This document shows, in pieces, positions 1-37,375 of a stretch of DNA of 43,506 nt (position 1 is its first letter; each line of letters opens with the position of its first letter). Origin of the DNA: Promethearchaeota archaeon (GTDB taxonomy: Archaea > Asgardarchaeota > Lokiarchaeia > Sigyniarchaeales > SOKP01); the NCBI GenBank assembly GCA_004375715.1, contig SOKP01000267.1, forward strand, positions 1 through 43,506. The letters run 5' to 3'. The position numbers and the translations under genes were made by a program. The notes beneath the pieces were generated by a model. The model saw only the letters and a list, made by a program, of their open reading frames with translations, had not been told where the DNA came from and did not search any database.

Positions 1-114
1 CCTGAAGTTCCAAATATATTTGATGTCATAATTTCATCTTTGCCTTAAAAATTTCCCATATTTATTCCCATAGAACTTCCCTTATATGTAGAACTTGCCC
101 ACAACGACATTCAG

Positions 115-3100
115 TTGGAAAAGATCGATAGTTTTACATATAAATTTGGATCAAACTCTTTAAAATATAGTTTTGGTTTCGAAATTTCTGAATTAAGAAC
201 AGATACCGGTCTCGTGCTTGCCGGGGACGCTTTTAGCTTTAATCCAAGCGAGAATTTAATCATGCTTACCAATGAACATTCCGGTTTGTTATACGCAGAC
301 ATTATCTATCAAGCCTTTGAGTGGGATATCGATTATATCTCCACTTTAGAGCCAATTACTATGACTTTTAGCGAAGACTTTATCAGTCAATACACTAAAT
401 ACCTCGAAATCGAAATTCAATACAACAAAATCCCTGGTTTCGAATTAACCAGCGTAGATCACACTTCGGGTAATTTAGTTATGACGCAAGAAGAAAAAGG
501 AGCAGAGTTATTAAATGTGTTCCTTTACAATTACCGAACAGAGAGATACGACCTTGTAGACTTCGTAACTTACGATAATTTTGGTGGTAGTGCTAACTTC
601 GTGCCCTCGTTCTCGTACGTAATCGACCGTAACTTCGTTACTTTTGAAGATTACTTTAAAGACACCGGTGGTGCGTTTGACATTAATTTTGTGTTAACAA
701 TACATGAAAATTTCGAAAGCTTTTTTAGCTCAGAATTAAGCTTCGACATCGACGAAATTAACGCTAAAATTTATCACAGCCCTCCAAGTTCAGAACAATT
801 TATAAATCCTAAGGTAGTTTTCGACGTAGATTTATCCCAATATTATTCAGATAACAATTTACATTTAGACGACATTACTATCGATTTTGATTACATTTCT
901 GATGTTTTTACTTCCGATTTAAGCCTTTTCTCTCAACATGCCCTTATTAACGAAAATTTTGCTTTTACTGTTTTAAACAAGTTTTTAGAGTACGAAAACC
1001 TAGAATTAGAAGACGATTCAATAACTTTTACAAAACAAGAATTAGAAAACTTTTTAGTTCACGACTTAGAAAACGATCGCTACTTTATCCGTATTAAAAT
1101 AGGTTACGAGTGGAGTTGCGTATTTGAGGCGAGTTTTGGTTCTGCAATAGACGTTTCTTTAATGCTCCAACTACTAAAATACGATTTAGAAGCAAGGTAC
1201 ACCTATTTCGAGACTACTCGAATTTCTTCGTTTGAAAGTTCAACTCCAGTGGGTTTAGTAGCTATACAAGCACCAAATTACGTTGAAACTGATATCGGTA
1301 TTAACGTGCTAGCTGGCGACGCTCAAGTAGATATCGGAATTAACTCTGGATTTTTACGAAATTTCGACACGAAACAAAGGCTTATGGTCCGCCAAGATTT
1401 GTATTTTAACTTCCCAGACAGTCAACTAAGTCCTATTCCAATAATAATTGATAGAGCCTACACAGACGTTATCCTAAGGTTTAAGAACCCCGTCGGATAT
1501 TTAAAAACCCCTCGGGGATTATATTTAAACAACAGCAAGAAATTCGTTTTTATTGCCGATTTTGAGGTTGCCTCAGTCGCTTTAAGTTGGCACGACGGAG
1601 TTCAAGAACACGCAATAGGAGCTATGCAACCTAAAGCCTTCCAACCAAACGAGTTCGAATATTTATGGAACGCGATAGATATAGACACTGGAGCAAGTTC
1701 GGGAGATTTAATTGAAGTGATAATAAGGTTAACCGATATTTTAGATAATACGAATGAGTATCATTATTATTACGAAGCTGACTTCTTAATCCCCACTCCT
1801 TCAGTGAGCTTAGGGGACGGTGCTCAAGATTTTACTTCAGAGTACGCAAATCCATTCACTAGCGTTAATTTCGATAGTAACGAACCAACTAATTCTGAAC
1901 TTTGGAACGAGCCTTTGACTTCATACGATCCTGCTTATATGACTCATTTAGATTACCCAGATAATTATGGTAACCAATGGACCATGATTCCAACGCTAAA
2001 CATATTTAACGGCTTTCCAACTCAAACAATTCCAGAATTATGGAGCGATTGGAGTCTTAGTTCTAACCCTAGTTACACATCTTCGAATTTTGGCAGTGGT
2101 ACTCTTTCTTCAGATCTAAACTTTGGATCACAAAACAGCGTCCCTGGCGGCTTTACCCTAAATAATGGTACCTTGGATTCTTCAGGAGACTTAAACAACG
2201 TAGGAGATACTTTTTCTACATTTACTTCGAGCGAATATCCAGGTGGCGATCCCGACTATTCACAAAAATGGAACGAAGATTTCGATACGGAAGAATCTTA
2301 TATGACGCAATCAGATTTACCAGACGGTTACGACAATTCATATTCGATGAATCCGCTTAACATGAACGTTAATTTCCCAAATGAAAACATTCAAGAAGAT
2401 TGGTCCGGATGGCAAGCTCCACAATACAATCCTACCTATACGATTACTACTTGGGGCGATGGCACATTTTCGTCGGTATACAATTCAGGAACGTCGTGGG
2501 ATGTTCCTAGTCAATCTGATTTTGGAATGACAAAGGGTACCTTAGATTACGGAGATCTCAATTCAGCCGATGGGGTAGATAAAGTCACCGTGACCTCTAA
2601 CGCGATCGATTTTAACACAGAGGTTGAAACATGGAACGCAGATTTATCCTCAGATCAAACCTATTACGATTACAACGCATACCCCGACGATTATTCCGAT
2701 ACCTTGACGTGGAATCCATTGTATATGGAAAACCGCAACCCAGAGGATTTGAACAACGCGGTTGATTACAACAATTGGGCAAACACCTACACTTCGTCGT
2801 ACACGGATACGACCTGGGGTAGCGGTAGTTATACTTCTTCACCGAAAGATCAATACGTACAATCGACAGATGACTCCTATAGTAGTCTTGGAAGTGGGGA
2901 TATTTCTTCAATGGAATCGGACGGCGGATCGGTGGCGAGATTTGATCGATCAGGAATTAGCGATAACAACGGATATGGAACTTCTGTTTCTATTGCTAAT
3001 ACTCACGGACTATGGCTCGATAATTACGGTACTGGTGGGGCTGACGCGAGAACTTACGGTACTAGCGACTGGAACGTAAACACGGGTGGTGGTTATTCTG

Positions 3101-6100
3101 GATACGTCGATTTTCACAATAACGGTTTCACAAATACTTACGTGGGATGGTCCATAACGTTCTACGTGGATACTGATTGGAACGATTATAGCGCTAATTA
3201 CAATTTTCTTGATATGGACATCAATATTTACGAACAGGCGTATCGGATTTACGGAAGGGAAGGTACGTACGACGGCGTGTGGTACGAGGTGTACAATAGA
3301 AACGATGGCGAATGGGAGACTCTTTCTGGGGTAGAGACTGGAAATCACGATACTTCTGGAACTCGTACAAGAGATTTAACGACCTCAAGTACCTATGTAA
3401 GTGCTACGTACGACGAATCGAATTTTGAGGATACTATTGCAAATTACGTAAACGCGGCTGACGGTAAAATGCGGTTTAAGATGTACGTAAGAGCGCTCAC
3501 CACAGATACACAGGTATTTTTGAATTGGGTCGTAAAAACGAAAGCGGTATTACAACAGTGGAGGGTTAAAATGGACTGGGAACCCAAATACGCTTACGCG
3601 AACTTTAACTTCGAAAGTGGGTTAGTTAATGGAGTTAACGATTATTACCTTTTCTTTGAAGGATACGCAGACGCTAACTCGTTGGCTACTCTTCAAAAGA
3701 AGGTAAGCGGTAGTTGGAGCAACGTTTACTGGTTGACCACTGGTTGGGGAGGCGTAACCTATTATAACCTCGACAATGTTCAAGATTTACGGATTAATTT
3801 CGGGTATTGGGACGCAAGTTCTGATGTCGATAATATATACATCGATTACTTGTACATAATACCGAAAAACCCCAGTGGTTATACCAGGTCTTATTTGGAT
3901 AAGGATATAAAGGACATTTTCCTCGATCGGTACGATGGTTACGAAAGTTTGGGCGAAGTAAGTACGAGAATTCTTGATACTCTTGTGAAGGTAAAAGAGA
4001 TACAAGTAAACGAAGATCACACTAGTATGATAGTTAATTGGGAGCATCGCGGTTCGAATGAGAGTGGAGGCAGTTCCCAAGTGTACGTAAACGACGTTCC
4101 CGTAGGAACTAATCGCGGTACATCAAGCCAATCGTACGTGGCAGTGGAGGAGACAATTACGGATATTAAAGCGGGCGATTTGATTCAAATATACGCTTGC
4201 ACTTGGACTCCTGGTCCATTCAGCGACTTTTACGTAAGAAACATGGGCGTTAGCGAGTACACGAATGAGTACTACGTAACGTTCTCGTTTAACTACGAAT
4301 TTACAACGGTTGATAGCAACATGATCGATTACGCTTACTTCTATTTAGACGGAACTCCTTACGCGCTTTCTAAAAATAGTGGTCCGCAGAGTTTTGAACA
4401 AAGCTTTACGTTCGATTCTACGTTTCGAGACGGTGCTAACACGGGATTTAACGTCGAGTTCGTTATACAAAACGGAGATCTCGACTTTTCCAACATGGAG
4501 TACGATATTAATTTCGTGCCATTTACCGGTCAAGGAGGTAGTTATCTTAACGAACAAAACGTAGAAGTTGATTGCGGTGGAACGTTAACGAATCAAGAAC
4601 GAGAAACCGCACAGTTGTATCTGGACGTTTCTTACGATTTTGACAACTACATTGACGCATTGAATTGGGTAAATACTAATGGAAGAACCAATAAGTTCGA
4701 AATCGTGTACAAGGTAAAAAAACAAGGTGATGCTACTTGGTACGAAAGCGTGTATGGTACGAGTACCTCGACAGCTACAACTAGGCGTTTTGACATACGG
4801 TCGTTGATTGGAAACGCAATATTTGAAGATATCAAGGTTGAAATTCTGGTTAACGGCGATCAGTGCGATCTCACGATATCAGACGTGTCTTTGATAAAAC
4901 GATCGATATCGTTCCCTGCGGAAGTAGACTTTACAATAGATTGCAACATTGATATTACTGATAAAGCTCAAGATTTAATAAAATTATACTATACTTATAG
5001 AATGGGTGACGATTACCAAAGTGGTACGTATTATAGCGACTTTTTTGAAATATACATCAAACAACAAGTAGCTCCTTACAATTGGATAATGTTCGAAGAA
5101 GACGTAGTGTCAGATTGGGACAGTGACGTTTTAGTGATCTCTAGCGATTATTACGACGCGAGCGGAAACATCGAGTTCAGAGTGGTTTCGAACAATTATT
5201 ACGATATTTTCGATGTAGAATTTGATGTGTTTAAGGTAGAACATCAATGGACCTACATATCCGGTGACGTGAACGCCGACGTAACTAAAACAATAACCGA
5301 TAGTTTCTTAAATCGTTACGACGGTTACGGTAATTATAAAAAACTATACGATGTAACCGTTGAGTTCGATTACACTTTCACCAACGGCGGAGATTTAGCC
5401 AAGTTTTACATCGATAGTACGGAGTATGTCCTTACAAAAGATGGGGCTCCTCACCTCTTTTCGCAAACATTCGAGTTCGATTCAGCGAGTAGAAGCGGCT
5501 TTGATGTAAAATTCGAAATTTCTAACGGTTTGTTAGAGCTAAGCAATATGGATTACGACGCGACGTTCAAAAGTATCAATACTTCCGATCACATCGTACT
5601 ACAACAAGATTTTAAAGTTGATTATCCAGAGGGCGGACTTACTCAATTCGAAAAAGACAACGGCATCTGGTCGATTAGGACCGCTTACGATTTTAATAGT
5701 TTCAGCGATGGTAAAACGTATTACAACAACTACGGTCGAACGAACGAGTTAGAGATCGTGTTTAACATTGAAGCGGATGGTGCTTGGTACAACGAAGCTT
5801 ACGTGTATTCTACCAGCACTTCGGAGGCCAGAGAAGAGATTTTCGACGTCACTCTATTTATGGAAAATTATCCAGGTGGTAGTCTTAACTCGTTCGAAGA
5901 TTTCGAAGTTGAATACGTGTTAATAGGAGATCAAAGACAATTAACAGTGACCGATTTATCGCTGTACGATTATAAAGCTGATGGTCCTGCGGTATTAGAC
6001 ACAGAATGCACGATTAGATTAGACGCTGTAACTATTGAAGATTCTTTTGATAACGTTGAATTACAATACGCCTACAAAACCGACGGTTCACAAATCGTAA

Positions 6101-9100
6101 ATCTTTGGTTATGGAACTATAACTTAGGAGGTTCAGGTGATTGGGAATTAATTGACAATAGCGTATACAATTCTTTCGCTACACAATATTATCCAATACC
6201 AATATCTTCCGATTATATTAACGCGAGTTACGATGTTAAATTTAAATTTGACGGAACGAGCAGTACCAACACATTTAGTTTCTATTTAGATCAATTTACC
6301 ATAGATTACTCGTATACCAGAACTGCAGGCTATATTTACGCCGATGTAACCAAGAACATAAACGATGATTTCTTAAACTGGTACGACGGCTACGCTAATT
6401 ATAAAAAGTTGTATGACGTTACTATAGAGTTCGATTATAAATTTACTACCTCCAATCTTGCTTACTCAGATTTCGCAGAATTTAGCATAGAGACTTCAGA
6501 AGGTTCGTTTACTTCGAATCCATTGACTAAAGACAACACTTGGTATTACGACCAACAATTTTCGTTTGAGTTCGACTCAGCCAGTAGAGACGATTTCGAT
6601 GTTAAATTTGAGATTTCTAACGGTGAACTATTACTTGATAACATGGAATACACTGTCCGATTTAAATGTATAGACGATCCTTCTGGAAATATTATCCTTC
6701 AACAAACTTTCGAACTCGATTATCCTTACGAATTCCAGCCTACATCCGAACCTATATTTGTAAATATTGATTACGAACTTGATGTTATCGTCGACGGAAT
6801 TACTTATCACAATACATTTGGAAATACCGACAAATTCGAAATTAGATACGCCGTTAAATCGAGAGGGGTTTGGTACGAAGAAGTATATTCTACGAGCAGT
6901 ATCGAAAGTAGATATGAAAAAATATTCGACCTGACTCAAATTCTAATTGACAATCAACTAGATTACATCGAAGATGTTAAGGTAACCTTTGCAATTATTG
7001 GAGATAGTACCAATTTAACTGTTCACTCTGTTTCAATAAAACATAATTCGCTTCCAGAAGAATATTACAGGATTGTCGATTTAGATTCAGGACAAGTTTC
7101 TTCGTGGACTAAGTTTGATTCGAGTTCTATAACTCAGTTAAGCGACTTTGGGGTTTTACCTAGCAAATTTACTTTAGAATACAAAGTTATAGACACTGCC
7201 GGCAACGAAGCAGTCGAATCAACTTACAACGGAGCGTTCGATCACGTTTTATACTCCACCGAAGCATCTATGGTCTGGGGAGACGATAATATTGATCTAA
7301 ACAGCGTAACCGCTTCACAAAGAAAGTTGTCCTTTAACGCAGATTTTGGAGGAGCTAACTTGCTTGACGTCTACATCAACGGATTTAAATATGGTACTCA
7401 AGCAGTTCGCACAACGGGAAATAATTACGAGATCGGTTTCGGAACCGAAAATAACTACGATTCCTTGTTAGTTTATTCAGATTCCATTTTAAACTCTCAA
7501 ATTTACTCTAATATTAACCCTCTTAACAAAATAAGCTGGGACGTAAAAAATAGCGAATATTACGCCGTAATTAAACACGTATTAGTCGATAGCCCTATTG
7601 GCATTATTAACCCCATAACTTACAATACGACTGTTGAGATGGATTTAAGCGCGCTTTACACACGAGGTTTCATTTTACCAGATTTCATGCGAGTTAAAGA
7701 AGTGTATTATTACAATTCTACTCCCCAAACTCCTGAAAAAACTTATCTACCATATGGAGAGTATGTTGTAGATACTATGGGAAACGTAAGTTGGCCAAGT
7801 AATTCTCCAATTCACGACGTATTTACCAATCACTTTAGCGAAGTTCAAGACGGTATAATCTATTTTGAATATTACGCTTCGGACTTTTCTGAACAATTAA
7901 AACTTGCCAACGCCGACGGGTTTATGATAGAATTTATTATGCCTTCCGTATATTGGGAACATACGACCATAGAAAAACTTACGGTATCGTTTAGCGATTT
8001 TATAGGTAATTCTTTTGCCAAAGTGTTTTACGACCTCGACTTAAAAGAATACTTCTTGGACGCAGTAAAAAGTAATTACGAGCAAGACATTTTTGGTTTA
8101 GGAAAAGTAATGGTCATACCGCTCTATATTAACATGAAAGAGATCATGTTTTCCAACCCTGGTAAGACGTTCGAATTAAAACTTTTAGATTCCATTTCTT
8201 TTGAGATCGAAGATTCTACCTTGTGGCCAGGATCGTTCGTCCAAGATTACGGTTCTGAAGGTTATTCGGTGTTAAACCTTCCATACCAAAGAGTGGGTAT
8301 CAAAGATATAAAGCTTTACAACTTAATAAGCGACTCAAACGAAGAAGTTGGTGGGTTTGTAGAGTCAAACATAGAGTTTAGAGCTCCAGATTATTACGAT
8401 TATTATGCCACAAGCGAATTTAACATAAAGAGAATAACAACTCCTCTTACTGATATTGCAGTGTTTTATGACGGTCAGGAGATAACTACCCCAACCGACG
8501 TTGAATATTCTGACTTTATAGAAGTATATCTCAAACAAGGAAGCGTAATAGAACCAATACTTTTCGATAAATTTATGGACTTGCCTATTAATCTTTACGA
8601 TACGATTGGCGAAGGAGTATATTCCACCGGGAACTTATATTGGATCACGACGAATAATAGAATATCGCCCGATGGATACACTAAGAATTATTACTACGCT
8701 AAGTTTGAAGTCCCACAATTAATTAAACTGTATAACGATCTAACTCTATTTTCTGTAGGCACCCCAATTCATAATATTGTTATTGGTGAGCAAGCAGCGT
8801 GGAAAGAATCTTCATGGTATAAATTAGATGGAAACGTTTTAGATTCAAGTGGTAGTAACGACGGTACGGCAGTTGGAACGGTCACATATCCTGTCGGTGT
8901 AATTGAAGAATGCATGAGCGTTTCTGGTCAAGCAAATAATTATATTTCAACTTTTACATCCCCATCTTTAACAACACAATCATCTTTTAGCATATCTACT
9001 TGGCTATATATTCCCGCTTCTTATACTTGGAACACATTGTCTTATAATCCTATTATATCTGCTGGTAGTTATGCAGGTGGTCATGGATTAGTACGACATT

Positions 9101-21100: not shown

Positions 21101-24100
21101 ACGTAGCTTTTGCCTACCCCATAAAATCGGTAGTGATAGAACTAGTAGAAAATACTATCGAAGGACCAAGAATTGTATTATCGGTTCCATTAAACAACGG
21201 TGATTATAATGTAGAGTTTGGTAATTTATACATAAAAGAAGCTATTGACAGTATTTTCTTTCCAAGTCAAAGCGCTTTCAATTTCTTGTCAGACAAAGGT
21301 ATAATTAATCCTTCTTCAAACATTTATTACAAGATTAAAATTACTTTTGATCTCGTCGTAGAAGATTCTGGTTCCAGCGATCACAGCAGAATGGCGCTCT
21401 CTCAAGCTACATCTTACGCCGTCATGGACTATTTCAATCAATACACATATGCCTCCGTTACGGCTAATATGATCGGTGAAATTGCTTACACCGAAATACT
21501 CACACTAATATCAACTCTAATTACTGCTCCTGTTCTACTTATCGGCGGGTGGACTACTGAAGGTGTTAAGAATTTTATAGGTAAAATAGGTGTAAAAGGC
21601 GTAGCCGCTAAAATACTTAAAGGCGTGTTAATTGCTGGAAAAATTATAAATTCAATTTTAGTTGCCCCTATAAAAGAAATGTTTGAAGAAATTATTACAG
21701 ACGGCTTTATAGAGACTTGGGCAGAAAGACAAGTCGAGTTATGGGGTGGAACCGAAGACATGGGATTCTGGTTTTCCGCTTTATGTACTTCCGGTCGTGA
21801 AACGCTTTCTGGAAGCTATAAAGGGGTCCGAAGTATGATGAAAGCCAAATCTGGCCAACAAGCAACCATTAAGTTGGCGCTTGACAACAGCGACAACCTT
21901 CCCACTTGGGTAGCCCAGAACATGGGTAAAGGATATATGTCTGATAGTAAATCTAGGAAGGCCATTATGGAACAGATATCCTATTTACAAAAGAATGGAG
22001 AGGCTGATATATTACTAAAAACCGATGAAAAGACTTCGATACTTAAAATCGCATATTCAGGAATTACTACCGCTTTTAAATTCACTTTATCCAACATGTT
22101 CCTCGGAAGCCAAACTATGAGTTCCATGCTCTCTCTTTCGGCGTTCTCTTCGACAATTACGGGAATAGGCGCTAAATTGGTCGGTAGGCATATTACAAAC
22201 CTTTACAACGCAAGAGTAAAAGAACAACTAGAACTAAAACCCATATTAAAGGTTATAAAAAATGCAAAAGCAGACATAGATGCAGAAGCGTACGTCAATA
22301 TAGCTAATTTATTTGCAGAACAGTCTGGCGATCAAATGCCTTCCACAAATATGAAGATGGAAGCTCCTAATAACGTTAAAGGAGGAATGTCGACGAAGAT
22401 CGAGAAGAAATTTGGTTATAAACAAGCTTTTAAACTATTAGTAGGAAGTTTTTCGATGATGTTCTCACTTAGGGGAACAGGTAAAATTAACCCCGCCAAG
22501 AATAAAAAGGCTAAACTCGACTCTAAAATAAGTTTGCAAACTGTTAGTAGCGATCGCCATGTGGTCGAGATCGCTATTGAAGATTTAGCCAGAGACGAAA
22601 GAGGGGTTTTCAAAAGAAAAGACATAAACGAATGGGACAAAAAATCTAAAAAATTCGTGCTGATCGATAAATCTGACTTGACGATCGACAAAGTTTTATT
22701 ATATATTAAAAAACAATTCGCCATCAATCCAAAAACTACAATGAAATTTTACAGCGAACAACTTGGATATTTAGATTACGCCATTACTGATAAAAGAAAG
22801 AAAATATACCTCGAGAAAACTATCGATATTGGAGGAAAACAAATTAGTATTGGACCTAACACTAAATTTAGCGAGATCGCAGATATATCTGATTTAATAG
22901 TTAAGTTCTCCGTAAAAAACGATTTTGATAGATATCCAGGCTATAAGGACGCAAGAACTCAATACTCCTACGTTTTAAGGGGGACTGGTAACTTTGAACG
23001 AGCGTTTGACACTAAAGAAAAAGCCAAAATTATACACGAATTAGTCGAAGGTAAAGAAGTTGAAGTTAATGGTGAAACAGAAAATATATGGGATGGAATT
23101 AATAACTACGCCAAGAAATATTTAGACATAAACGGACTATATCCTAACGCATTAGCAATGTATAAATCGGTTCTGAGAGCTAATTTACAAAGTCAAATCG
23201 AAACTGTTTATAAAAACGAAGTTTTAATTAATAAAATTAAAGCATCTATCAAAAATGTTGCAGAATCTGATGTAATATTTAAAAAATACGACAACTTAAT
23301 TAAAAAAGTCTTTGAAGTGCAATTTAAAGCTTTCACAGATAAGGTTACTAATAAACAAGCTAAGAAGTTTTTAGAAGAATGTGCTCAACAAGAAATTTTT
23401 AATCACATCTTAAAAACACTCGGAGCAGATAAAAAGGAAGGTCTAGGAGGATTTAGTATCTACTCTTTAGCATCTAAACTCGATAGTTTCTTGGACGATT
23501 CTCAAAAAATAGAGACATTCGAAAATTATTTATTTAAACCAGAATCAATTTCAAGTTCTAGAGCTCCTCTTCTTAAACAGATAGCTGGAGGATATTTCGA
23601 TCAAGTACAACATGAAACACCTCAGCTAACTAGAAATATGGGAATGCTCGTAGGACGTTGGCAAGAGTCCAACGACTTCTTTGGTGATTTACCTGATCGG
23701 ATCGTAGATGCTTTTATAAAAAATGATTTCGAAATACCAGAAGGATTTAACGGTATGAATTACGGAAACCAGAATCCTCCTTTGGATCTAAATACTCATC
23801 TTGGAAGTAAATTTGAGAATCTAGTGGATGTTGAAGAAGTCGTATTAGGTGTTTCTAGCGATTGGGCTAAAGTTTTTAAATCCTTCTCCACTAATTCCCC
23901 GTCAGATAGAAGATATTTTGATAACCTTCTAATCGTATTTTCAACGTTGTTCTTAGCTAGCCCAAACAAAGGAAGTTACAAAAACGATTTGTCTCCTACA
24001 ACAATTAAAGGAATGGTAAACGACTTTTCTTCGACTCAACTTTCTACATTTTTTGTAGAAATGGCTAAAAGCTTGCAATCCGGTAAATTCGATCTGAAAC

Positions 24101-27100
24101 TCATTAGAAAATTTGCTGGTACTCTTTGTGGACCCAGTTCTGATCCTGATGCTAACATAAAACTATTCATAGAACAACTATTTTTAAATAGACAAGAACT
24201 TAACCAATTCAGGAGTGGAAGCAAAGGAAAAGATTTAAAGATGCCTTCAAAATACGCCTTTTTATTTGGTATCGCTGAAATGTTTGGAGATAGTGCCGAA
24301 TTAGGGAAAGCTGAAAGTAAAAACGATGCAATTAATACTATTTCTGAATTTTTCCAATCTTTTGAAATTGAATTTGATGATGACAAACGTGTTAATTATG
24401 GAAAATTCCAAGAAAAAATAAATTCTATTGCTGCAAGATATTTTAAAGCTGATTATGTAAGGAATTTTAATGAAAATTTCTACAACGCTTTAAAGAGTCT
24501 ATTTTCGAACAAAGGATTTTTAAACCACATGATACGTAAAACTGAATCTGGGGTTGGATACCGGATACTTTGGGACGATCACGTAACTCCTCTATTTGAA
24601 GCTACGGCCAATAATAAACCAATTAAACTAACAAGAAACATGATTCCTACTTCCATAAAAGGAAAACCAATTTACGTTTTAGACGCCAACAAATGGGTTA
24701 AACTAACAAATTTAAGGAACGATTATTCTTTCGAAGCAGCTCACATTTACGTATACAACTTATTAGAGAACGGAGAAAAAGAAGTAGGAATTGTCAAAGT
24801 AGATTCCATGAACGACAACGACTTTTCTAACGCAAGAGATTCTACTGGTAACTCTATTGATATTTACGAAGGTTTTGCTACCGAGAGCGGAGCGACTGTA
24901 AACGGCGCTTGGTTAAGTAACGCAGAAGGCAATTTGATGCTTTCAGATGTCAACTTAGAAGACTTTAGTGTGCGATCTGAACAAGACCAAAAATGGTACG
25001 AAGAATTTCTAACGATCGAAAACGGAGAGTTGAAAAATGTTCTTTTTATGAGTTACATTATCGTTTCAGGTTCAAAATTAACATGCTTTCTACAAGAAAC
25101 CGGAGTAAATTTTGAGACCTATAGTTCCTATAGTTCATTTTTCCCAGACATTATTCAAGAAAACATAAGGGGTATTACGTACATAGACGAAGAGACTATT
25201 ATTAAGAGCGAAAATCCAAGCGATATTACCAAAAACAAAGTTTCCGCTCTCCAAAATTTAATGTTTCAAATTTCTGAGACTTTAAAGAAAAAACAACGTA
25301 AGCTCCCAACTGTTATGTCAGATACAGTTTTGAACCTACAGTCGTCAGAAGAAAAATATTCTATTGAATCATCTAAAAAGTTACTATTATCGTTGAAACC
25401 AGAAACCGGAGACGCATTATACGATCTTTCAGTATTCCCAATTAATCCTTCTCTAGGCAAACCTCATTACGATTCGGAAGATCCTAATTATTGGGTTAAG
25501 ATGATTACTAGGGTTACAGTAGATGGAGATCAAAAAAGTTTAACTAACACTAAGAAGAAAGCGTTTTACAACGGATTGCTACTTCTCATCCAAAACGATT
25601 TATATAAAAAAGTTGGTGAAAGTTGGGTTTTAAATCCTGATAGCGTTTTTATAGATCACCAATCTTTACTTTCAGAATCGTTTACTGACGATGCCGATTT
25701 CTTAATTGACGAAACAGACGGTAATCCCGATAACTGGAAAGACGATTTTGTTCTTGTTAAAAAAATAGATGTAGCTTTACAAGATAAATTAGGTCTCGTC
25801 GGATTCGCTTCTTACATCACAGGATTCATGACATTCTCAGAAAGTCATTTTCCATATAGAATCCACATAGACTTTGTCCCACATAATAGAAAACATCAAA
25901 AAACTTTAAATACTCAATTTGGCATTAAATCATTTAATAGACGTCATAATTCCTTTCGGTCTTCTTCTGGTCTTACTCAATTTTATGGATCTCTTTTTAT
26001 TAACGGGTTTGTCCACGAGTTAAAAGGTAGAAAAGTCGGTTCAGTTGATATTACAATAAACCAAGAAGTAAAACCTTCCACGAGCATATTTCTAGATGAT
26101 TATTTTGAAATTTACTCCCCTAGAGATTACCTCGACTATGGAGACGCCACGAACCTAATTCTTGATGGGTTTAAATCTAAAATTTCTGATCAAAAGGGAA
26201 GAAACAAAGCGAATTTGAAGGGTCGCGATGATCTATACGCCTTCCTCTCTAAGAAAGCGAAGGATTTGATAGGCAAAATATTAATAGCATACAAATGGGT
26301 TAGTATACCGTATGTGGGAGGTGAAATATTCGATCAATTCGTAGATAATCCTGATTATTGGTATAGTAGAACATTAACGCAAGCTAGAAATATGCTTAGA
26401 GCTTACATCGATAAGCCAACCTTTGCCAACGACTACATTAACACTTTAAGTGAAATTTTACGGACAGGAGAAGACGGTTACATAGAATTAAAAACGGGTA
26501 TGGGAGGAAGCGGATTTTCTCTTGCTTATTCGGGTAACGCTCTGCTTGATAAAGGTTTACGAATTCCAATTTCTTACAAAGAATTAAAAAAATTTCTCTC
26601 GTTTGATAATTTAAAAGAGTTGTCCACCGATGCTCTTTTTACTTTACTTTTTCACCACTCCGGCTCATATATGTCACCAAGAGGGGCGTATGTCCAAGAC
26701 GCTAACCAATGGTGGGAAATAAATAAAGACCAAATTAGCGATAAGACGGTAAAAACATACAATACGATAATTAATACATTTTCACTAGAAAACCTCGGCG
26801 AACAACTTTTCAACAAAGAATTTACAATAGAATTTTTGATTGATAGAGGAGCAGGAATTGATTCTTATTTCATTAAACGGTTTTCAAGTTTTGGAATTTC
26901 TGAAGACAAAATTACTTTCACTCCAAGTCACCCTTATGGTCTTAAAAACGCGATTTCAAGCTTAATCACCTATTTATACTTCTTCCCCGACACTTTTTAC
27001 GCAATAAAGCAAGGAGGGTCAAACTTTATGTTTGGTGACATTTTTAAAATACGCTCTCCTGAATATGTTGCTGATTCTGGTTATTCGGGAGTAATTGAAG

Positions 27101-27771
27101 GGAATTTTATGTGGTCAGGTGATGGTAGTGCCAACGGCTTAACAAGAGAGAATTACGAAATTCTCGCTGCCGAGTTTAGCGCAGATGATCGTTTTACCCA
27201 TCGCGATATACGCTATCTTCTCGGATTTAACAACGATGATATTGTCAGTCTATTGCTAAGTAAATTCCAGACTATGTTTAGCCAACAAGTAGACGAGAAT
27301 ATTGATATTATTGATTTAAGAATTAAAAGTCTAAATAGTTTGGTTGGGGATTTTCCTTTTATATTAAGCAAATACTTATATAACGATCATAGTAAAGCGT
27401 TAATTACAGAGCTAATAAGTCAGGGCATCATAGAAAACGAAGTCGGATTGTCGGCTGTAACTCGAGATCGAGAAGGTAGAATTATTTGGTTAGAGCAGGG
27501 AGACTTTGTCCATATTATAGACCGTCAACGCCAAAAACCCAGACGTTTTGAAATTTTTGCCGGTTTATTAACCGACGCTATATCTATAGGTAACTTTATT
27601 TTTGACTCTATTACTGAATACCCATGCGTTGATGATACACAACCAGGGTATTACCCTGGTGCTTTTTTCCATACTTACGAAATTCGGAGAGGTGGTGCTA
27701 CCAATTATTTACACGTGCTCGTTGATGCAGACGGACATATTGTTACGGCCTTCGGTAAACCGTATAAATGA
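115..27771 (+). CDS. Giant multidomain surface/toxin-like protein (>=9218 aa); annotated TTG start is doubtful and the 5' end is probably incomplete
   Basis: Single uninterrupted frame of 9218 codons in AT-rich DNA. The frame is open back to nt 49 with a TAA at 46-48. Modular beta-rich repeats, LamG-like domain, D-x-D-x-D-G motifs, TM segment and toxin-like C-terminus seen in the translation. Confidence 0.9.
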   Translation: MEKIDSFTYKFGSNSLKYSFGFEISELRTDTGLVLAGDAFSFNPSENLIMLTNEHSGLLYADIIYQAFEWDIDYISTLEPITMTFSEDFISQYTKYLEIEIQYNKIPGFELTSVDHTSGNLVMTQEEKGAELLNVFLYNYRTERYDLVDFVTYDNFGGSANFVPSFSYVIDRNFVTFEDYFKDTGGAFDINFVLTIHENFESFFSSELSFDIDEINAKIYHSPPSSEQFINPKVVFDVDLSQYYSDNNLHLDDITIDFDYISDVFTSDLSLFSQHALINENFAFTVLNKFLEYENLELEDDSITFTKQELENFLVHDLENDRYFIRIKIGYEWSCVFEASFGSAIDVSLMLQLLKYDLEARYTYFETTRISSFESSTPVGLVAIQAPNYVETDIGINVLAGDAQVDIGINSGFLRNFDTKQRLMVRQDLYFNFPDSQLSPIPIIIDRAYTDVILRFKNPVGYLKTPRGLYLNNSKKFVFIADFEVASVALSWHDGVQEHAIGAMQPKAFQPNEFEYLWNAIDIDTGASSGDLIEVIIRLTDILDNTNEYHYYYEADFLIPTPSVSLGDGAQDFTSEYANPFTSVNFDSNEPTNSELWNEPLTSYDPAYMTHLDYPDNYGNQWTMIPTLNIFNGFPTQTIPELWSDWSLSSNPSYTSSNFGSGTLSSDLNFGSQNSVPGGFTLNNGTLDSSGDLNNVGDTFSTFTSSEYPGGDPDYSQKWNEDFDTEESYMTQSDLPDGYDNSYSMNPLNMNVNFPNENIQEDWSGWQAPQYNPTYTITTWGDGTFSSVYNSGTSWDVPSQSDFGMTKGTLDYGDLNSADGVDKVTVTSNAIDFNTEVETWNADLSSDQTYYDYNAYPDDYSDTLTWNPLYMENRNPEDLNNAVDYNNWANTYTSSYTDTTWGSGSYTSSPKDQYVQSTDDSYSSLGSGDISSMESDGGSVARFDRSGISDNNGYGTSVSIANTHGLWLDNYGTGGADARTYGTSDWNVNTGGGYSGYVDFHNNGFTNTYVGWSITFYVDTDWNDYSANYNFLDMDINIYEQAYRIYGREGTYDGVWYEVYNRNDGEWETLSGVETGNHDTSGTRTRDLTTSSTYVSATYDESNFEDTIANYVNAADGKMRFKMYVRALTTDTQVFLNWVVKTKAVLQQWRVKMDWEPKYAYANFNFESGLVNGVNDYYLFFEGYADANSLATLQKKVSGSWSNVYWLTTGWGGVTYYNLDNVQDLRINFGYWDASSDVDNIYIDYLYIIPKNPSGYTRSYLDKDIKDIFLDRYDGYESLGEVSTRILDTLVKVKEIQVNEDHTSMIVNWEHRGSNESGGSSQVYVNDVPVGTNRGTSSQSYVAVEETITDIKAGDLIQIYACTWTPGPFSDFYVRNMGVSEYTNEYYVTFSFNYEFTTVDSNMIDYAYFYLDGTPYALSKNSGPQSFEQSFTFDSTFRDGANTGFNVEFVIQNGDLDFSNMEYDINFVPFTGQGGSYLNEQNVEVDCGGTLTNQERETAQLYLDVSYDFDNYIDALNWVNTNGRTNKFEIVYKVKKQGDATWYESVYGTSTSTATTRRFDIRSLIGNAIFEDIKVEILVNGDQCDLTISDVSLIKRSISFPAEVDFTIDCNIDITDKAQDLIKLYYTYRMGDDYQSGTYYSDFFEIYIKQQVAPYNWIMFEEDVVSDWDSDVLVISSDYYDASGNIEFRVVSNNYYDIFDVEFDVFKVEHQWTYISGDVNADVTKTITDSFLNRYDGYGNYKKLYDVTVEFDYTFTNGGDLAKFYIDSTEYVLTKDGAPHLFSQTFEFDSASRSGFDVKFEISNGLLELSNMDYDATFKSINTSDHIVLQQDFKVDYPEGGLTQFEKDNGIWSIRTAYDFNSFSDGKTYYNNYGRTNELEIVFNIEADGAWYNEAYVYSTSTSEAREEIFDVTLFMENYPGGSLNSFEDFEVEYVLIGDQRQLTVTDLSLYDYKADGPAVLDTECTIRLDAVTIEDSFDNVELQYAYKTDGSQIVNLWLWNYNLGGSGDWELIDNSVYNSFATQYYPIPISSDYINASYDVKFKFDGTSSTNTFSFYLDQFTIDYSYTRTAGYIYADVTKNINDDFLNWYDGYANYKKLYDVTIEFDYKFTTSNLAYSDFAEFSIETSEGSFTSNPLTKDNTWYYDQQFSFEFDSASRDDFDVKFEISNGELLLDNMEYTVRFKCIDDPSGNIILQQTFELDYPYEFQPTSEPIFVNIDYELDVIVDGITYHNTFGNTDKFEIRYAVKSRGVWYEEVYSTSSIESRYEKIFDLTQILIDNQLDYIEDVKVTFAIIGDSTNLTVHSVSIKHNSLPEEYYRIVDLDSGQVSSWTKFDSSSITQLSDFGVLPSKFTLEYKVIDTAGNEAVESTYNGAFDHVLYSTEASMVWGDDNIDLNSVTASQRKLSFNADFGGANLLDVYINGFKYGTQAVRTTGNNYEIGFGTENNYDSLLVYSDSILNSQIYSNINPLNKISWDVKNSEYYAVIKHVLVDSPIGIINPITYNTTVEMDLSALYTRGFILPDFMRVKEVYYYNSTPQTPEKTYLPYGEYVVDTMGNVSWPSNSPIHDVFTNHFSEVQDGIIYFEYYASDFSEQLKLANADGFMIEFIMPSVYWEHTTIEKLTVSFSDFIGNSFAKVFYDLDLKEYFLDAVKSNYEQDIFGLGKVMVIPLYINMKEIMFSNPGKTFELKLLDSISFEIEDSTLWPGSFVQDYGSEGYSVLNLPYQRVGIKDIKLYNLISDSNEEVGGFVESNIEFRAPDYYDYYATSEFNIKRITTPLTDIAVFYDGQEITTPTDVEYSDFIEVYLKQGSVIEPILFDKFMDLPINLYDTIGEGVYSTGNLYWITTNNRISPDGYTKNYYYAKFEVPQLIKLYNDLTLFSVGTPIHNIVIGEQAAWKESSWYKLDGNVLDSSGSNDGTAVGTVTYPVGVIEECMSVSGQANNYISTFTSPSLTTQSSFSISTWLYIPASYTWNTLSYNPIISAGSYAGGHGLVRHYNADNVVSMYIRTSTTTKVASTTISRDVWANIVGVFDGIAEELRIYHDGNHIMTTDTSSFLLEDLDASIFTLGGGTTLGGNTDPNRYFEGSLDDARFFDYALSQEEVSWLYNSPNQPLYTFDFDLNVIQESLLDTGAIYLSEESFELEYQDSLILEGVVLDNDEYLVEDKVYDYNWQEALDGTTVHNLEIIAPLGEDLFIEKTEFSIFYLDNELQKVPLYVNQYKGTELKHVKDNAILDQNKDPIISYINNNYYLTVYWNPTAANLMRYDTNLLVTYKVIKGRPISPVSYSSIDSYGHSREEHLVEIPFAKYDMFTNQWVTETDVIDSFPIDKVLMIEDTHSTSIPPSIYGPTFDDGGTFNLGIIGVDNIYVKPDGEEIYQLVDSDDYYWTISNGILQINSYTGLAGDLKIAYYTYNPVPLEHSLTQTESVLNYIKVISRDDPLNFYVFDDPSDFKISTNGYKIYFYDLYTKVLAAGFDLYDIFEISYHAPLTRRVDLSNNLLLMVQDYSSLKYVPIDVVPIDNLGFFKYDKKFSMESLLSLPMGGETTVNMKLSYLPDQIWDVSQNPSQWAPPIQYDSYAEIGVIYPYQESTGWDKEFKIITIPKKVKLEMVDYATQSIVVAQEFIENREYLFSTDPLETIEKGQEYTAVQIDALAREDYEFTYKLTDYNGSPINNSIVWMHVGFMPKTATKFLNDRAIIEELGEEPYFESLGTELLTSKGPGTGPDKMFGKPLTYQTKDTTGYYGPMIWNYAVTNEYGEVTFEVAFDDNYLLNFAKCFNSLSSVSTIEDIVLYSRVFSVPFDWDEFKIENPEQYISSKDGTVFDGSEIIEDYDFTDLILQDSTYVEGIIRLHKGDIALGLSDFLSYDLPNPDVDGPDPEYDDVQITLYVTEANPIPTTVTQSLDSLTAIYSSSELEPLPISILNFEDTYSVLIDVIDVSGNNIFHTEQAIIPVLDGGTIGISGDVMKGIVTSLPPGVSTIQIQVKESDFYKASPIVSIPLEIKPPNWVKFGEKNTIIDLIDPFVSAWGNSFDGEEFMPFESNYPHLIGTLWIRPDFNGVEERSIQDYIEINLDCTIYNPDGSINGTFPLREGIMLRPVNREGLMTFDVGLGPEDAFLMGLKCMLSLTFDASFNEYELTEQTRATEIVLLDLRLEENPSSNSPTELWSIRNDQFEDASTPIIGVYEDSSSFFIDTGALILGDETDKYGVEVDHQFTTGTLDYSLDADSNLLSLNNLILITPVDVKDADGQTYPFSVPSADSTIRFTGTTPADGAEFTVVYKMEFDFPSGESYGKINLDPALNTLAGGIDFYFDTGVLVSSENSKSAMFVPYQEEITVSANEYLMSYTVSSPVDSDFVIYNKKELDALDLADGEIITSIDGTGYLKIIFDQAPAVPFTVEYGVKSQYQLGYGFQKQDKPYSESIRLMYNDPARNTNYIEDEITDTKKPITLEDPSLFIALDSSDKETILELYNIPLLYSPEVDLEFRIDEIALDKIKDASVFNTLKIEFFYVANDGYNSYYTESTELLLDYATEIEPGLETDNSFIITYNKDLQNFYEAVGGSDLNLYISISQVGAGVDYLPYIVLESFDYLCDEHLVEMYDRMPIDLDGDLDENSVVNTPHYYQIFSEAFNEDPFNLIVGSEVTVSINDLPRSQLVALDVDAQQNYNFDYLGTSETYPVNSEELYMLTNLALYTNAYNLDEPLIQDGSIDLYYGAGTDIKGERDYDKQFYMEHLPGENPPVYWSGVDGTKATSWKTTFTFADTFLTTDEITVSGTVYYHQMFDLDEDVIGIAEINNLFSESGIQNIKFGVQMPNDISVYYIKSVGEPYQYELSVQGFPTGDYIGDSIYYTISSGPGAISYSPSDNTLESGTHYSLEYLSNGSKYLLFYEDETFVETYVDADRILMVDYWAYHEFNEGIDYEIKENPDPEADPYESVIEWYYTYSYNDPDLYFAMHPDFTLDSSFRIEYSGLTWRGFDNSYLFDAVDNLDFQPRITTEISLEYTGQSQEIFSILNIVPDDQLSELDLFNYIYLNTWDGVDEETKLSTQLPFDPSYIVQDATTDFLYIIDFDAILTGISPDIIELDTYVYIETEYDSTQLKYPLSKTPFNWDYIPPSPVENHITIDINNGQVEWSSYQPEFLNYVEKIENNYIYFVDGIINPGDTIDVSYRYKLQPGLLESKHFLMVVYPWTNVFDTVLSDVVSDTSSDSSITYREKYRKLAGGSVMSPFEYSLSVEDTYSLYISYRLNQREYYEETFEITDQRYIDNDFTFTYLNAELDNYFDELVIDNVAAVTVYYYDFSGQYRLLDDEFYSVNYGTNTITLLPKYSGGIDSNILTAHNNLNEFYVSTVPKSEDVEYSSYRFTYDPRVDIIDTINVINWDVIGAEGLDVFANLDAYWFMNDKESTYDNFVSHASQVASYLEPNDKLRFDIFSEFDTYGEFDLLLDDITGNEFLSLFIDTNIKNYEAISDLTVNLLDAGEGVLASDTISIDDLFMNDFGIKVDISSGMANLKFIEIEPIFRQDGAYDLDNTIIPKFETFEWNEELTMFDEGGNKFMSVPLENELITDTATILRFNGEMQYLDLLPGSDFTWEDNKNEFTQLNEYVLNIPNSYLNPDNPVEELEFVEGNMIVVRYNTPVKRAISIAIGELYFQRKPYAYSSSLPTAECLLVNVDDYEDYTTFTDPYYYKIPLDLTPFNTEFSGSFKTIKIDFDLSDGQIDSQYIVNNLIEFSDLILSSPYPNYELTISEIALQSESTESSTVYEVINERVWQFTELDEYISGEDPQNDAYAFTPTNTPLFWGENKWLDYLLIFDEDSNYYSSCVQTIEEDHQLHYASNQFTWNGDFGVFQEYYGSQVELPLMVESNKDIYFAYSTLTSWETPISIDYENIDMGTIDVVFDYNYLLTPRFEKWGDTVNKNTEFDYELTQYYTESFTVYDPIATQYTHQYDIDYSFVDDFTIDLDVYKVIGLTPTFEDIEIINGIDYNWNFNPANKEFFIEEIPGNGDITAFDVIAVILSFSYGPISTYSEIELSQSFHDAYITDAEATFFDYLSISFGFNTISGDGLFAEDTQTITSDFTSFEAIDFNRNPDVSTNNLLNNPESNMFIDFQVFTDPFNVIYEADLDMDGKMEYKQEIDLDKDGRIDITKYGIEDDQDSENIIWYSIIQDYVTEEIIVDKKIGEEQKTDWFDIDDTLFSDYEFNLLLLLASILILPLLAYTLSTMILPDVDYWAQKSVQQETTETQYAKSRYYSIRLDDDRDGFTDSQVTYERSDTVVEFESHDYEKTIIAAKPQNIFTVLFEWIAKNVDSMLGKPPKDLIFNEDLTEDKLDNNDLSYLGESLHASTLQATYRKFTKDTTITYTSESVSEQITVQDWSNGTIDQTRIYQNVFDNEDIDSEILTSLFKSKKYKIVDLDSGQEQLFTVKTPFSITTPKLRQIVETSTSWEDNIPDRFDSLTTIVDGVSTTTNEYETLEPINIIIPGRFSLYNDMYVGDKDYAVGDTEFSVSGIFITPPDGMVYHSSNKDLFKAGKGKSKGHYFYYDSDNNGFYETVYVLEPIDTTYTSVIINGQVIRGPVEKSVYMVKAIGYNYDGQHDFSPYRKVNRIIRSETNFDQLEAETPQKFGLHWVVNFKKLKNVDLIFPDDPFDGYEVKDHIFEISKLVDPSEFNNKFSELFYEARHQTYTDAWKQYEQQLVQDIIEQVFMTLTASAISSALHAIPFVGVVLGPLGYFLAYTLMTKFSMDVKSKIADSQTKAFTFYPVESDRKQKTSLSERIDSDEEWGDNMPAALMGHPGAYYTTITGEDDEQIYSAQAIVSPPNPLRDTPDNIGGFLEFLWDNVWKTTESNPDLFTGLDFDGLELDFLLMTNELSALNDVPGYSFTLESNLAKYNDYRSNTLGYLQQKIKEESNGKLDAIKPIIINGKPQYIFVDSSEDSNQATMPLSHLYQPVIVSSDRARYINQEAKIEIDIECAYAPNTQGINAYQNLIPEEKELFASKIPLSNVAFAYPIKSVVIELVENTIEGPRIVLSVPLNNGDYNVEFGNLYIKEAIDSIFFPSQSAFNFLSDKGIINPSSNIYYKIKITFDLVVEDSGSSDHSRMALSQATSYAVMDYFNQYTYASVTANMIGEIAYTEILTLISTLITAPVLLIGGWTTEGVKNFIGKIGVKGVAAKILKGVLIAGKIINSILVAPIKEMFEEIITDGFIETWAERQVELWGGTEDMGFWFSALCTSGRETLSGSYKGVRSMMKAKSGQQATIKLALDNSDNLPTWVAQNMGKGYMSDSKSRKAIMEQISYLQKNGEADILLKTDEKTSILKIAYSGITTAFKFTLSNMFLGSQTMSSMLSLSAFSSTITGIGAKLVGRHITNLYNARVKEQLELKPILKVIKNAKADIDAEAYVNIANLFAEQSGDQMPSTNMKMEAPNNVKGGMSTKIEKKFGYKQAFKLLVGSFSMMFSLRGTGKINPAKNKKAKLDSKISLQTVSSDRHVVEIAIEDLARDERGVFKRKDINEWDKKSKKFVLIDKSDLTIDKVLLYIKKQFAINPKTTMKFYSEQLGYLDYAITDKRKKIYLEKTIDIGGKQISIGPNTKFSEIADISDLIVKFSVKNDFDRYPGYKDARTQYSYVLRGTGNFERAFDTKEKAKIIHELVEGKEVEVNGETENIWDGINNYAKKYLDINGLYPNALAMYKSVLRANLQSQIETVYKNEVLINKIKASIKNVAESDVIFKKYDNLIKKVFEVQFKAFTDKVTNKQAKKFLEECAQQEIFNHILKTLGADKKEGLGGFSIYSLASKLDSFLDDSQKIETFENYLFKPESISSSRAPLLKQIAGGYFDQVQHETPQLTRNMGMLVGRWQESNDFFGDLPDRIVDAFIKNDFEIPEGFNGMNYGNQNPPLDLNTHLGSKFENLVDVEEVVLGVSSDWAKVFKSFSTNSPSDRRYFDNLLIVFSTLFLASPNKGSYKNDLSPTTIKGMVNDFSSTQLSTFFVEMAKSLQSGKFDLKLIRKFAGTLCGPSSDPDANIKLFIEQLFLNRQELNQFRSGSKGKDLKMPSKYAFLFGIAEMFGDSAELGKAESKNDAINTISEFFQSFEIEFDDDKRVNYGKFQEKINSIAARYFKADYVRNFNENFYNALKSLFSNKGFLNHMIRKTESGVGYRILWDDHVTPLFEATANNKPIKLTRNMIPTSIKGKPIYVLDANKWVKLTNLRNDYSFEAAHIYVYNLLENGEKEVGIVKVDSMNDNDFSNARDSTGNSIDIYEGFATESGATVNGAWLSNAEGNLMLSDVNLEDFSVRSEQDQKWYEEFLTIENGELKNVLFMSYIIVSGSKLTCFLQETGVNFETYSSYSSFFPDIIQENIRGITYIDEETIIKSENPSDITKNKVSALQNLMFQISETLKKKQRKLPTVMSDTVLNLQSSEEKYSIESSKKLLLSLKPETGDALYDLSVFPINPSLGKPHYDSEDPNYWVKMITRVTVDGDQKSLTNTKKKAFYNGLLLLIQNDLYKKVGESWVLNPDSVFIDHQSLLSESFTDDADFLIDETDGNPDNWKDDFVLVKKIDVALQDKLGLVGFASYITGFMTFSESHFPYRIHIDFVPHNRKHQKTLNTQFGIKSFNRRHNSFRSSSGLTQFYGSLFINGFVHELKGRKVGSVDITINQEVKPSTSIFLDDYFEIYSPRDYLDYGDATNLILDGFKSKISDQKGRNKANLKGRDDLYAFLSKKAKDLIGKILIAYKWVSIPYVGGEIFDQFVDNPDYWYSRTLTQARNMLRAYIDKPTFANDYINTLSEILRTGEDGYIELKTGMGGSGFSLAYSGNALLDKGLRIPISYKELKKFLSFDNLKELSTDALFTLLFHHSGSYMSPRGAYVQDANQWWEINKDQISDKTVKTYNTIINTFSLENLGEQLFNKEFTIEFLIDRGAGIDSYFIKRFSSFGISEDKITFTPSHPYGLKNAISSLITYLYFFPDTFYAIKQGGSNFMFGDIFKIRSPEYVADSGYSGVIEGNFMWSGDGSANGLTRENYEILAAEFSADDRFTHRDIRYLLGFNNDDIVSLLLSKFQTMFSQQVDENIDIIDLRIKSLNSLVGDFPFILSKYLYNDHSKALITELISQGIIENEVGLSAVTRDREGRIIWLEQGDFVHIIDRQRQKPRRFEIFAGLLTDAISIGNFIFDSITEYPCVDDTQPGYYPGAFFHTYEIRRGGATNYLHVLVDADGHIVTAFGKPYK
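1816..2940 (+). repeat. Three degenerate tandem repeats (~110-130 aa each), Tyr/Asn/Ser/Trp-rich, within the giant protein
   Basis: Units share a W-N-x-(P/D/A)-(L/F/D) ... YPD(N/G/D)Y ... M-(I/N)P ... W ... TTWG(D/S)G(T/S)(F/Y)(S/T)S pattern: LWNEPLTSYDPAYMTHLDYPDNYGNQWTMIP / KWNEDFDTEESYMTQSDLPDGYDNSYSMNP / TWNADLSSDQTYYDYNAYPDDYSDTLTWNP. Confidence 0.7.
4258..7060 (+). repeat. Three tandem ~240-340 aa modules within the giant protein
   Basis: Near-identical segments GDVNADVTKTITDSFLNRYDGYGNYKKLYDVTVEFDYTF (~5263) and GYIYADVTKNINDDFLNWYDGYANYKKLYDVTIEFDYKF (~6331), with a diverged first copy. Each is followed by FDS(A/T)xR...F(D/N)V(K/E)F(E/V)I(S/Q)NG...(D/N)M(E/D)Y and GRT(N/D)(K/E)(F/L)EI. 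Confidence 0.75.
8800..9435 (+). other. LamG/concanavalin A-like domain inside the giant protein
   Basis: Translation WYKLDGNVLDSSGSNDGTAVGTVTYPVGVIEECMSVSG...FSISTWLYI...RDVWANIVGVFDGIAEELRIYHDGNHI...YFEGSLDDARFFDYALSQEEVSWLYN matches the LamG (Laminin_G_3) pattern. Confidence 0.85.
18463..18888 (+). other. Cluster of Asp-rich Ca-binding-type (EF-hand/dockerin-like) loops in the giant protein
   Basis: DLDMDGKMEYKQEIDLDKDGRIDITKYGIEDDQD at 18463-18570 and DDDRDGFTD at 18862-18888; a third, DSDNNGFYE, near 19720. Confidence 0.6.
18697..18771 (+). other. Predicted transmembrane helix in the giant protein
   Basis: FNLLLLLASILILPLLAYTLSTMIL, the strongest hydrophobic run in the first ~6200 residues. 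Confidence 0.75.
27511..27768 (+). other. C-terminal BECR-fold RNase toxin-like domain of the giant protein (tentative)
   Basis: HIIDRQRQKPRRFEIFAG...NFIFDSITEYP...GAFFHTYEIRRGGATNYLHVLVDADGHIVTAFGKPYK-stop. This resembles the H-x-x-x-R/H ... V-x-V-D-x-x-G-x-I-V-T-A-F endings of polymorphic-toxin nucleases. No search run. Confidence 0.45.
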
Positions 27772-35294: not shown

Positions 35295-35579
35295 CCGAGT
35301 CAAATCTTCTCTAAGATGATCTTAAATTCTTCGATAAATTTAAGAAAACATAGTAAAGAAAGTAAAATCAAACGAGTCTTTTTCTTTGTTCGACATAAAT
35401 CTTAATTTTTTGAAAAAGTTAAAAATGAATAGGAAATGGATGTCTAAAATGAGAATATACTAACAATGATAGTAAACAATTCTTTGAATATTTAATAAAT
35501 TCAGAAATCGGTAGACATCAAAACACTTAAATATCTAATGAATCTTTTTTTTCTTAGCTCGTTTACGATAAAAGTTCTT

Positions 35580-37195: not shown

Positions 37196-37196
37196 C

Positions 37197-37375
37197 TGGT
37201 AGTGACTCTATATTCTATAGAGCCGAACTCATTGCTGATATAGAAAGAAAAGGAGGACATGTTTTAATTCCTGCCAAGCAATATAAGAAAGTCAAACAGT
37301 TCATTACCGATTATCTCGATGGAAAGCATGGTCGGGTGCGGAAATACACCTTTTCAACCGCTCCCGCAGCAAAAA
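37197..37375 (+). mobile_element. DDE transposase internal fragment
   Basis: Plus-strand reading GSDSIFYRAELIADIERKGGHVLIPAKQYKKVKQFITDYLDGKHGRVRKYTFS resembles the catalytic-Asp region of IS4-like DDE transposases. Confidence 0.6.

Follow-up and report, generated by a model that had tools for sequence, protein, structure and literature searches.

What does an archaeal reading frame encode when it runs for more than nine thousand codons without a stop? The window considered here is the whole 43,506-base contig SOKP01000267.1 (C75 in our numbering) of a Promethearchaeota archaeon of the Lokiarchaeia, and it carries such a frame at positions 49-27771. An initial annotation, made from the letters of the sequence, took the frame to be a giant modular surface effector or adhesin. 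We put the probability at about 0.72 that it is most of a giant polymorphic-toxin effector of Lokiarchaeia, that is, a membrane-anchored protein with a swappable toxin end and an adjacent immunity gene. What carries this reading is the giant size, the N-terminal membrane helices predicted in relatives, a conserved stalk, exchangeable ends, a toxin-like tip, and a partner gene linked to that tip. Genomes, contigs, and loci are labeled G, C, and L where they must be told apart, and the coordinates of the features are collected in Table 1.

A long frame that has lost its start

Frame +1 has no stop between 49 and 27768 and closes at 27769-27771; its stop-to-stop length is 9,240 codons, or 9,218 when counted from the first TTG. 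At the base composition of the region, 0.070 stops per codon (one per 14 codons) would be expected, and the chance of so long an open stretch is negligible (log10 P = -291). The longest open stretch in the other five frames is no more than 121 codons. On this point the initial annotation was right. Is the frame also a whole protein, as was supposed? It is not, as its N-terminal part is missing. The genome is fragmented and 83.7% complete, and the window takes in an entire contig. Because of this, because no in-frame ATG occurs before codon 72, and because relatives extend 2,900 to 7,200 residues farther upstream, the window is judged to start inside the giant gene, and position 49 to be something other than its beginning. 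The TTG at 115 is not a credible start codon either, since the relatives continue far upstream of it and have predicted membrane helices at their N termini. At 46-48, just 46 bases from the edge of the contig, stands an in-frame TAA, which is either a genuine stop or an end-of-contig error. The frame would represent the 3' two-thirds or so of the full gene. The same genome holds a second, diverged giant (L044; G000:C247:19-5910), which has another tail and a Cys-ribbon gene downstream and also begins at a contig edge.

Eight gap-free, colinear relatives have frames of 11,241 to 14,833 amino acids (aa) and 35 to 43% identity to the window protein. The sequences read are free of N; a further frame of 13,771 aa (G011:C74) was excluded because 5,537 of its codons are N. 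Since relatives keep the same frame at this level of protein identity, it is best understood as being translated as one protein and maintained by selection. All the intact relatives checked have predicted membrane helices at the N terminus: most have several, G130 has two, and G160 has one. The orthologous architecture, whose absence from related genomes had been named beforehand as an observation that would refute the initial annotation, is present in several Asgard genera. The named homologues in the GTDB collection are metagenome-assembled genomes (MAGs) of Lokiarchaeota or Lokiarchaeia, with one exception (L054; JAAKFN010000045.1): an 11.5-kb contig assigned to a chlamydial MAG, which is probably a misbinned Lokiarchaeal contig and otherwise a case of transfer.

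Two kinds of genes recur upstream of the giants. A small winged-helix-like gene, possibly a regulator, lies within ~3.2 kb of several of them (among G153, G156, and G011:C74; G022, G011:C77, and G130), and a putative surface protein of 560 to 616 aa, possibly a partner, is found upstream of three, its copies sharing 30 to 38% identity.

A constant stalk with exchangeable ends

The beta-type repeats, the LamG domain, the Asp-rich DxDxDG loops, and the Lys-rich part described in the initial annotation are all there. The stalk is acidic (net-negative) and rich in aromatic and Ser/Thr residues, and the C-terminal end, after residue ~7000, is near-neutral and Lys-rich. Searches of the window frame with Pfam, NCBIfam, PADLOC, and PHROGs returned LamG alone, plus a sub-cutoff partial match to TafC over the LamG stretch. 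LamG is not a fixed part of the stalk, being absent at that place in several relatives (the alignments of G153, G130, G160, and G011:C77 skip residues ~2912-3125). DxDxDG loops occur at residues 6139, 6153, 6272, and 6558. A transmembrane segment had also been proposed, and the hydrophobic segment at residues 6210-6229 does exist, with a counterpart at the corresponding place in some relatives; it is not the anchor, as the membrane helices predicted in relatives are N-terminal, and its suggested role as a divider between two halves of the protein finds no support.

The most conserved module stands just before the variable end. It consists of a beta domain, modeled with high confidence, followed by long helices with invariant Asp/Glu residues, for which model confidence is low. 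Within the phylum, it occurs in 31 of 227 genomes and 8 of 61 genera, and all but one of those genomes come from one family.

What happens beyond this module? The backbone is conserved to residue ~7,250, and from there on the C termini of relatives differ, with sharp swap points. Their tails measure ~700 to 2,000 aa and fall into several classes with sharp boundaries. The tails of L053 and L056 are 79% identical over 211 residues and then unrelated, and those of L061 and L070 are 52% identical over 1,149 residues and then unrelated. L055 and L067 share 45% identity over 395 residues, and L055 and L056 are similar up to the C-terminal end. The tail of the window protein is common to G009, G136, G147, and, in part, G002, and all four of these proteins stop where the window's tip begins; they appear to be a natural empty site for the tip. 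As a separate observation, the L063 tail contains a Peptidase_S24-like stretch (E 8.7e-5), and L120 (11645-12490) has, ahead of a tip, a region of similar appearance by eye; self-cleavage releasing the tip is a possibility.

A toxin-like tip and its partner

The initial annotation called the end of the protein toxin-like, and two comparisons support this. A profile of three tip sequences matched a single PDB chain, 7m5f_C, the C-terminal toxin region of CdiA (CdiA-CT) from Serratia marcescens BWH57 (E 3.8e-9). Foldseek, given a low-confidence model of the tip, ranked the same chain first and as its sole significant match (E 5.2e-5, TM score 0.39-0.47), a result not fully independent of the profile match because Foldseek also uses sequence. 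The Serratia toxin is an RNase of the Barnase-EndoU-ColicinE5/D-RelE (BECR) type according to its authors, with H47, E51, H52, and R89 as the likely active site (PMC8616854). A plasmid search also found weak similarity to the tip (E 0.01) at the extreme C terminus of a Rhizobium hemagglutinin-repeat protein with small open reading frames (ORFs) behind it. Among the variable ends, a relation to a known toxin is seen for the window tip only, and the other tails are unassigned.

The tip recurs on two other backbones. One is a 1,049-aa protein of G012 in which just part of the conserved module remains, and the other belongs to G148. Homologues of the 180-aa product of the gene at 27849-28391 are encoded directly downstream of these two tips, with 67% and 44 to 46% identity. 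As both other clear tip homologues are followed by a homologue of it, this gene is likely the tip's immunity gene. G010, G011, and G150 encode homologues of the 180-aa protein without a detectable tip, a pattern like that of orphan immunity genes. A PDB search with the family gave no match to CdiI. In G012, the short toxin gene (L052:10508-13657 on C10) seems to hold a LAGLIDADG homing-endonuclease-like stretch, seen as weak PADLOC matches, between module and tip.

Genes next to the ends

If the ends are exchangeable toxins, what lies behind them elsewhere? At 20 related loci, the first downstream gene most often encodes a leucine-rich repeat (LRR) protein or a small Cys-ribbon protein and is usually 13 to 82 bases away. 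Its class agrees in 16 of 24 locus pairs with homologous ends, where 4.5 would be expected (p 0.0003 by a permutation that ignores the relatedness of the loci). LRR proteins (Imm-LRR) are an established immunity class (PMC3482391). The long-tail loci G009, G136, G147, L061, and L070 are likewise neighbored by convergent LRR genes that share the N-terminal domain of the window's LRR gene, and 8 of 48 members of this LRR family lie within 3 kb of a toxin or immunity 3' end (0.15 expected).

The window also bears a trace of recombination at this end, namely, the inverted LRR duplicate adjoining a remnant of an immunity gene. A repeated 1.4-kb segment was considered as a pair of insertion sequences and rejected, as it is the duplicated LRR gene. 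The ORF at 36661-37260 on the minus strand, a recombination product, resembles a NosD-like beta-helix protein in its first part and finishes with the last 51 codons of an immunity gene.

Two loci elsewhere deserve mention. In G161, an island (L120; G161:C4:293000-310042) has a short toxin with the conserved module and two toxin ends, both with an LRR gene behind them; with several small toxin-like/immunity-like pairs on both strands, it looks like a cassette store for ends. At L059 (G011:C77), two tandem Cys-ribbon genes, 80% identical, stand behind the giant and are candidates for a duplicated immunity gene.

Table 1. Features of the window and alignment of the intact relatives with the window protein
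Feature	Coordinates or alignment	Strand	Basis or remark
Giant gene, 3' part	49..27771	+	9,240 codons; 5' end lost at contig edge; colinear relatives 2,900-7,200 aa longer upstream
Tandem beta-type repeats, residues 603-910	1855..2778	+	Self comparison, 35-41% identity
Larger beta-type repeats, residues 1394-2330, ~360-aa period	4228..7038	+	Self comparison, 33-45% identity, E down to 1e-42
Laminin_G_3 (LamG/ConA-like lectin) domain	8935..9423	+	Pfam PF13385, E 8.3e-18
Two DxDxDG (calcium-type) loops, then hydrophobic segment, residues 6210-6229	18463..18735	+	
Most conserved module before variable end, residues 6851-7260	20599..21828	+	Alignments, structure model
Long variable tail, residues ~7261-9096 (~1,840 aa)	21829..27336	+	21-28% identity with only part of the relatives
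C-terminal tip, residues ~9097-9240 (144 aa), CdiA-CT (BECR RNase)-like toxin module	27337..27768	+	Profile, Foldseek, homologues on other backbones
180-aa gene, candidate immunity protein	27849..28391	+	Homologues behind both other clear tip homologues
LRR gene with conserved N-terminal domain, convergent to toxin locus	28434..29474	-	Pfam LRR
Second copy of LRR gene, inverted	35538..36617	+	DNA identity ~90%
Remnant, last 51 codons of immunity gene, now end of ORF 36661-37260	36664..36816	-	75% identical
G022, 12,880 aa	Window residues 6-13 with residue 5,778		
G011, 11,241 aa	Window residues 6-13 with residue 4,849		
G153, 12,745 aa	Window residues 6-13 with residue 6,343		
G147, 14,557 aa	Window residues 6-13 with residue 6,148		
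G136, 14,473 aa	Window residues 6-13 with residue 6,671		
G156, 14,833-aa frame	Window residues 6-13 with residue 7,207		
G130, 11,376 aa	Window residues 6-13 with residue 2,935		
G160, 11,504 aa	Window residues 6-13 with residue 4,905		

Likeness to known systems

To which known systems do these loci compare? At the sequence level, they have the features that define polymorphic toxin systems: a conserved N-terminal part with exchangeable, nonhomologous ends, an end related to a known toxin (in the window), and a matched downstream gene. The constant stalk, exchangeable C-terminal cassettes, adjacent immunity genes, orphan cassettes, and an LRR immunity class are all described for such systems (Zhang et al. 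2012, PMC3482391). By association across loci, the downstream gene would be the cognate immunity gene, matched to the toxin class. The N-terminal membrane helices of the relatives are compatible with export or delivery into another cell. A few archaeal polymorphic toxins have been recorded, and the stalked example named among them is RHS-type, from Methanosarcina (PMC3482391); the Asgard stalk is unrelated to it and reaches ~9,000 to 13,000 aa in intact relatives.

The closest layout is that of contact-dependent growth inhibition (CDI; CdiA/CdiI), especially the BWH57 CdiA-CT (PDB 7M5F), in which the C-terminal toxin of a very long surface protein varies and an immunity gene follows. The archaeal giant differs in being anchored, as predicted, by N-terminal membrane helices, and its stalk has no sequence kinship to CdiA. 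The giants are also several times longer than the usual CdiA. Neither Pfam nor NCBIfam showed filamentous hemagglutinin (FHA) repeats or two-partner secretion (TPS) features in the window protein, nor did Pfam in the N-terminal stretch of G022 that was scanned, and no CdiB was recognizable among the neighbors inspected, partly by eye and not by profile. Because these features were not found, we regard the locus as CDI-like in layout and not as a member of CDI.

Among archaeal systems, the VARTIG module of Thermococcales resembles these loci in having a large beta-domain surface protein with a hypervariable C terminus and partner genes, but its variable part is an immunoglobulin domain rather than a toxin module and its proteins are about a thousand residues long (PMC8416519). 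Giant Lokiarchaeota frames and LamG are shared with the giants of Asgard aloposons (PMC8813620) and the LamG-bearing huge archaeal proteins (PMC11573180). The aloposon twins differ in being 3,000 to 6,000 aa, in tandem, and at tRNA sites (PMC8813620). The one-LamG architecture is the commonest among huge archaeal proteins; its function “is not understood,” and none was proposed for the LamG giants (PMC11573180). The initial annotation had called this an unusual protein class for archaea. That holds for the combination, as no paper joining Asgard or LamG giants with polymorphic toxins was found in the literature searched, which did not include a 2019 mBio survey of archaeal toxins that may note part of it. 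It does not hold for the components, since giant Lokiarchaea LamG proteins (PMC8813620, PMC11573180) and a few archaeal polymorphic toxins (PMC3482391) were already known.

How the protein might work, and what else it could be

In the mechanism we infer, the N terminus would hold the giant protein in the membrane of the producer, with the long filament projecting outward. When the producer touches another cell, the tip might be helped across that cell's membrane by the conserved module and the hydrophobic helices; once inside, this BECR-type end would cleave RNA, probably tRNA. The 180-aa immunity protein would protect producers and their kin, and loci would diversify as a tail or tip is replaced together with the adjacent immunity gene.

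Several points weigh against this. Toxicity, secretion or delivery, and protection by the partner are deductions from sequence. The window tip alone reaches only E 0.28 against PDB, and its model, in which helices precede a four-stranded antiparallel sheet in the order of the BECR fold, has a mean per-residue confidence (pLDDT) of only 55.7. With a numbering offset of 20 that is itself inferred, the tip keeps His at H47 only, with Arg and Gln in place of E51 and H52 and no conservation of R89; since the proposed catalytic residues are only partly kept, the tip may be inactive or have a different cleavage. The conserved module has no PDB match, and its structure model gave no fold match; the long tail matches nothing in Pfam, NCBIfam, or PDB. 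The relatedness of loci is left out of the permutation test on downstream-gene class. Finally, the N terminus of the window protein is off the contig, and a search of its own genome with the upstream part of one relative gave zero matches.

These points leave room for a halomucin-like giant, a surface adhesin or matrix protein, in which the variable end and LRR neighbors recognize partners or self and the CdiA-like tip is decayed or repurposed. The stalk itself may still act as an adhesin. Most of the length is indeed acidic, beta-rich, and lectin-bearing, the long tails show no recognizable enzyme, the tip's proposed catalytic residues are incomplete, and one-LamG giants, though common in archaea, have no explanation so far (PMC11573180). 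However, the tip travels with a specific neighbor gene across backbones, and the agreement between tail class and neighbor class is the pattern of toxin and immunity, so we consider this explanation unlikely. Somewhat less probable still is kin discrimination or partner signaling, in which the tip would enter neighboring cells and act there as a regulatory RNase instead of killing them. Its anatomy would be the same as that of toxin delivery, the partial catalytic site suits it, and CDI proteins also mediate cooperative behavior (PMC8616854), but nothing speaks for it specifically.

Could the frame instead be the giant gene of a mobile element like the Heimdallarchaeum aloposons, with their tandem genes of 3,000 to 6,000 aa at tRNA sites? 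Asgard giant genes are known from aloposons (PMC8813620), and the distribution of the conserved module is patchy (31 of 227 genomes). Yet the window has no tRNA, only 1 of 11 scanned stretches has one, 6 kb away, and the loci read show no tandem giant pair and differ in size and layout. The aloposon hallmark of tandem giants at a tRNA site with MinD/ParA upstream was not seen at the loci inspected, the window's upstream side being off the contig. A search with the conserved module, which also addressed a viral origin, found no relative in 2.9 million viral contigs. We rate a mobile element as very improbable. An assembly artifact or pseudogene read-through that fused several genes is hardly credible: the contig does come from a MAG, its edge truncates the gene, and there is a TAA 46 bases away from that edge, but eight relatives from other genomes share the continuous frame and its order at 35 to 43% identity. 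The polymorphic-toxin effector is thus preferred, and the original idea of a giant surface effector whose C-terminal third is no simple anchor is upheld by the orthologous Asgard architecture, the toxin-like end, and the candidate immunity gene behind it.

What the finding would mean

A broader proposal is that these loci form a contact-weapon family specific to Lokiarchaeia, with membrane-anchored proteins of up to ~14,800 aa, several toxin classes with immunity classes to match (LRR and Cys-ribbon proteins among them), and entry and toxin domains without a known bacterial counterpart. We see the chances of this as evenly balanced. As far as we could find, giants of ~14,800 aa are among the longest archaeal proteins and would be the longest polymorphic toxins. 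The locus points to where new toxin and immunity families may lie, and its small, expressible parts (the 144-aa tip and the 180-aa partner) make a protein of 1 to 1.7 MDa accessible to testing. If the reading is true, archaeal giant proteins so far without a function would gain one, and one family of them, in archaea related to eukaryotes, would have a concrete, testable role in contact-dependent conflict or self-recognition.
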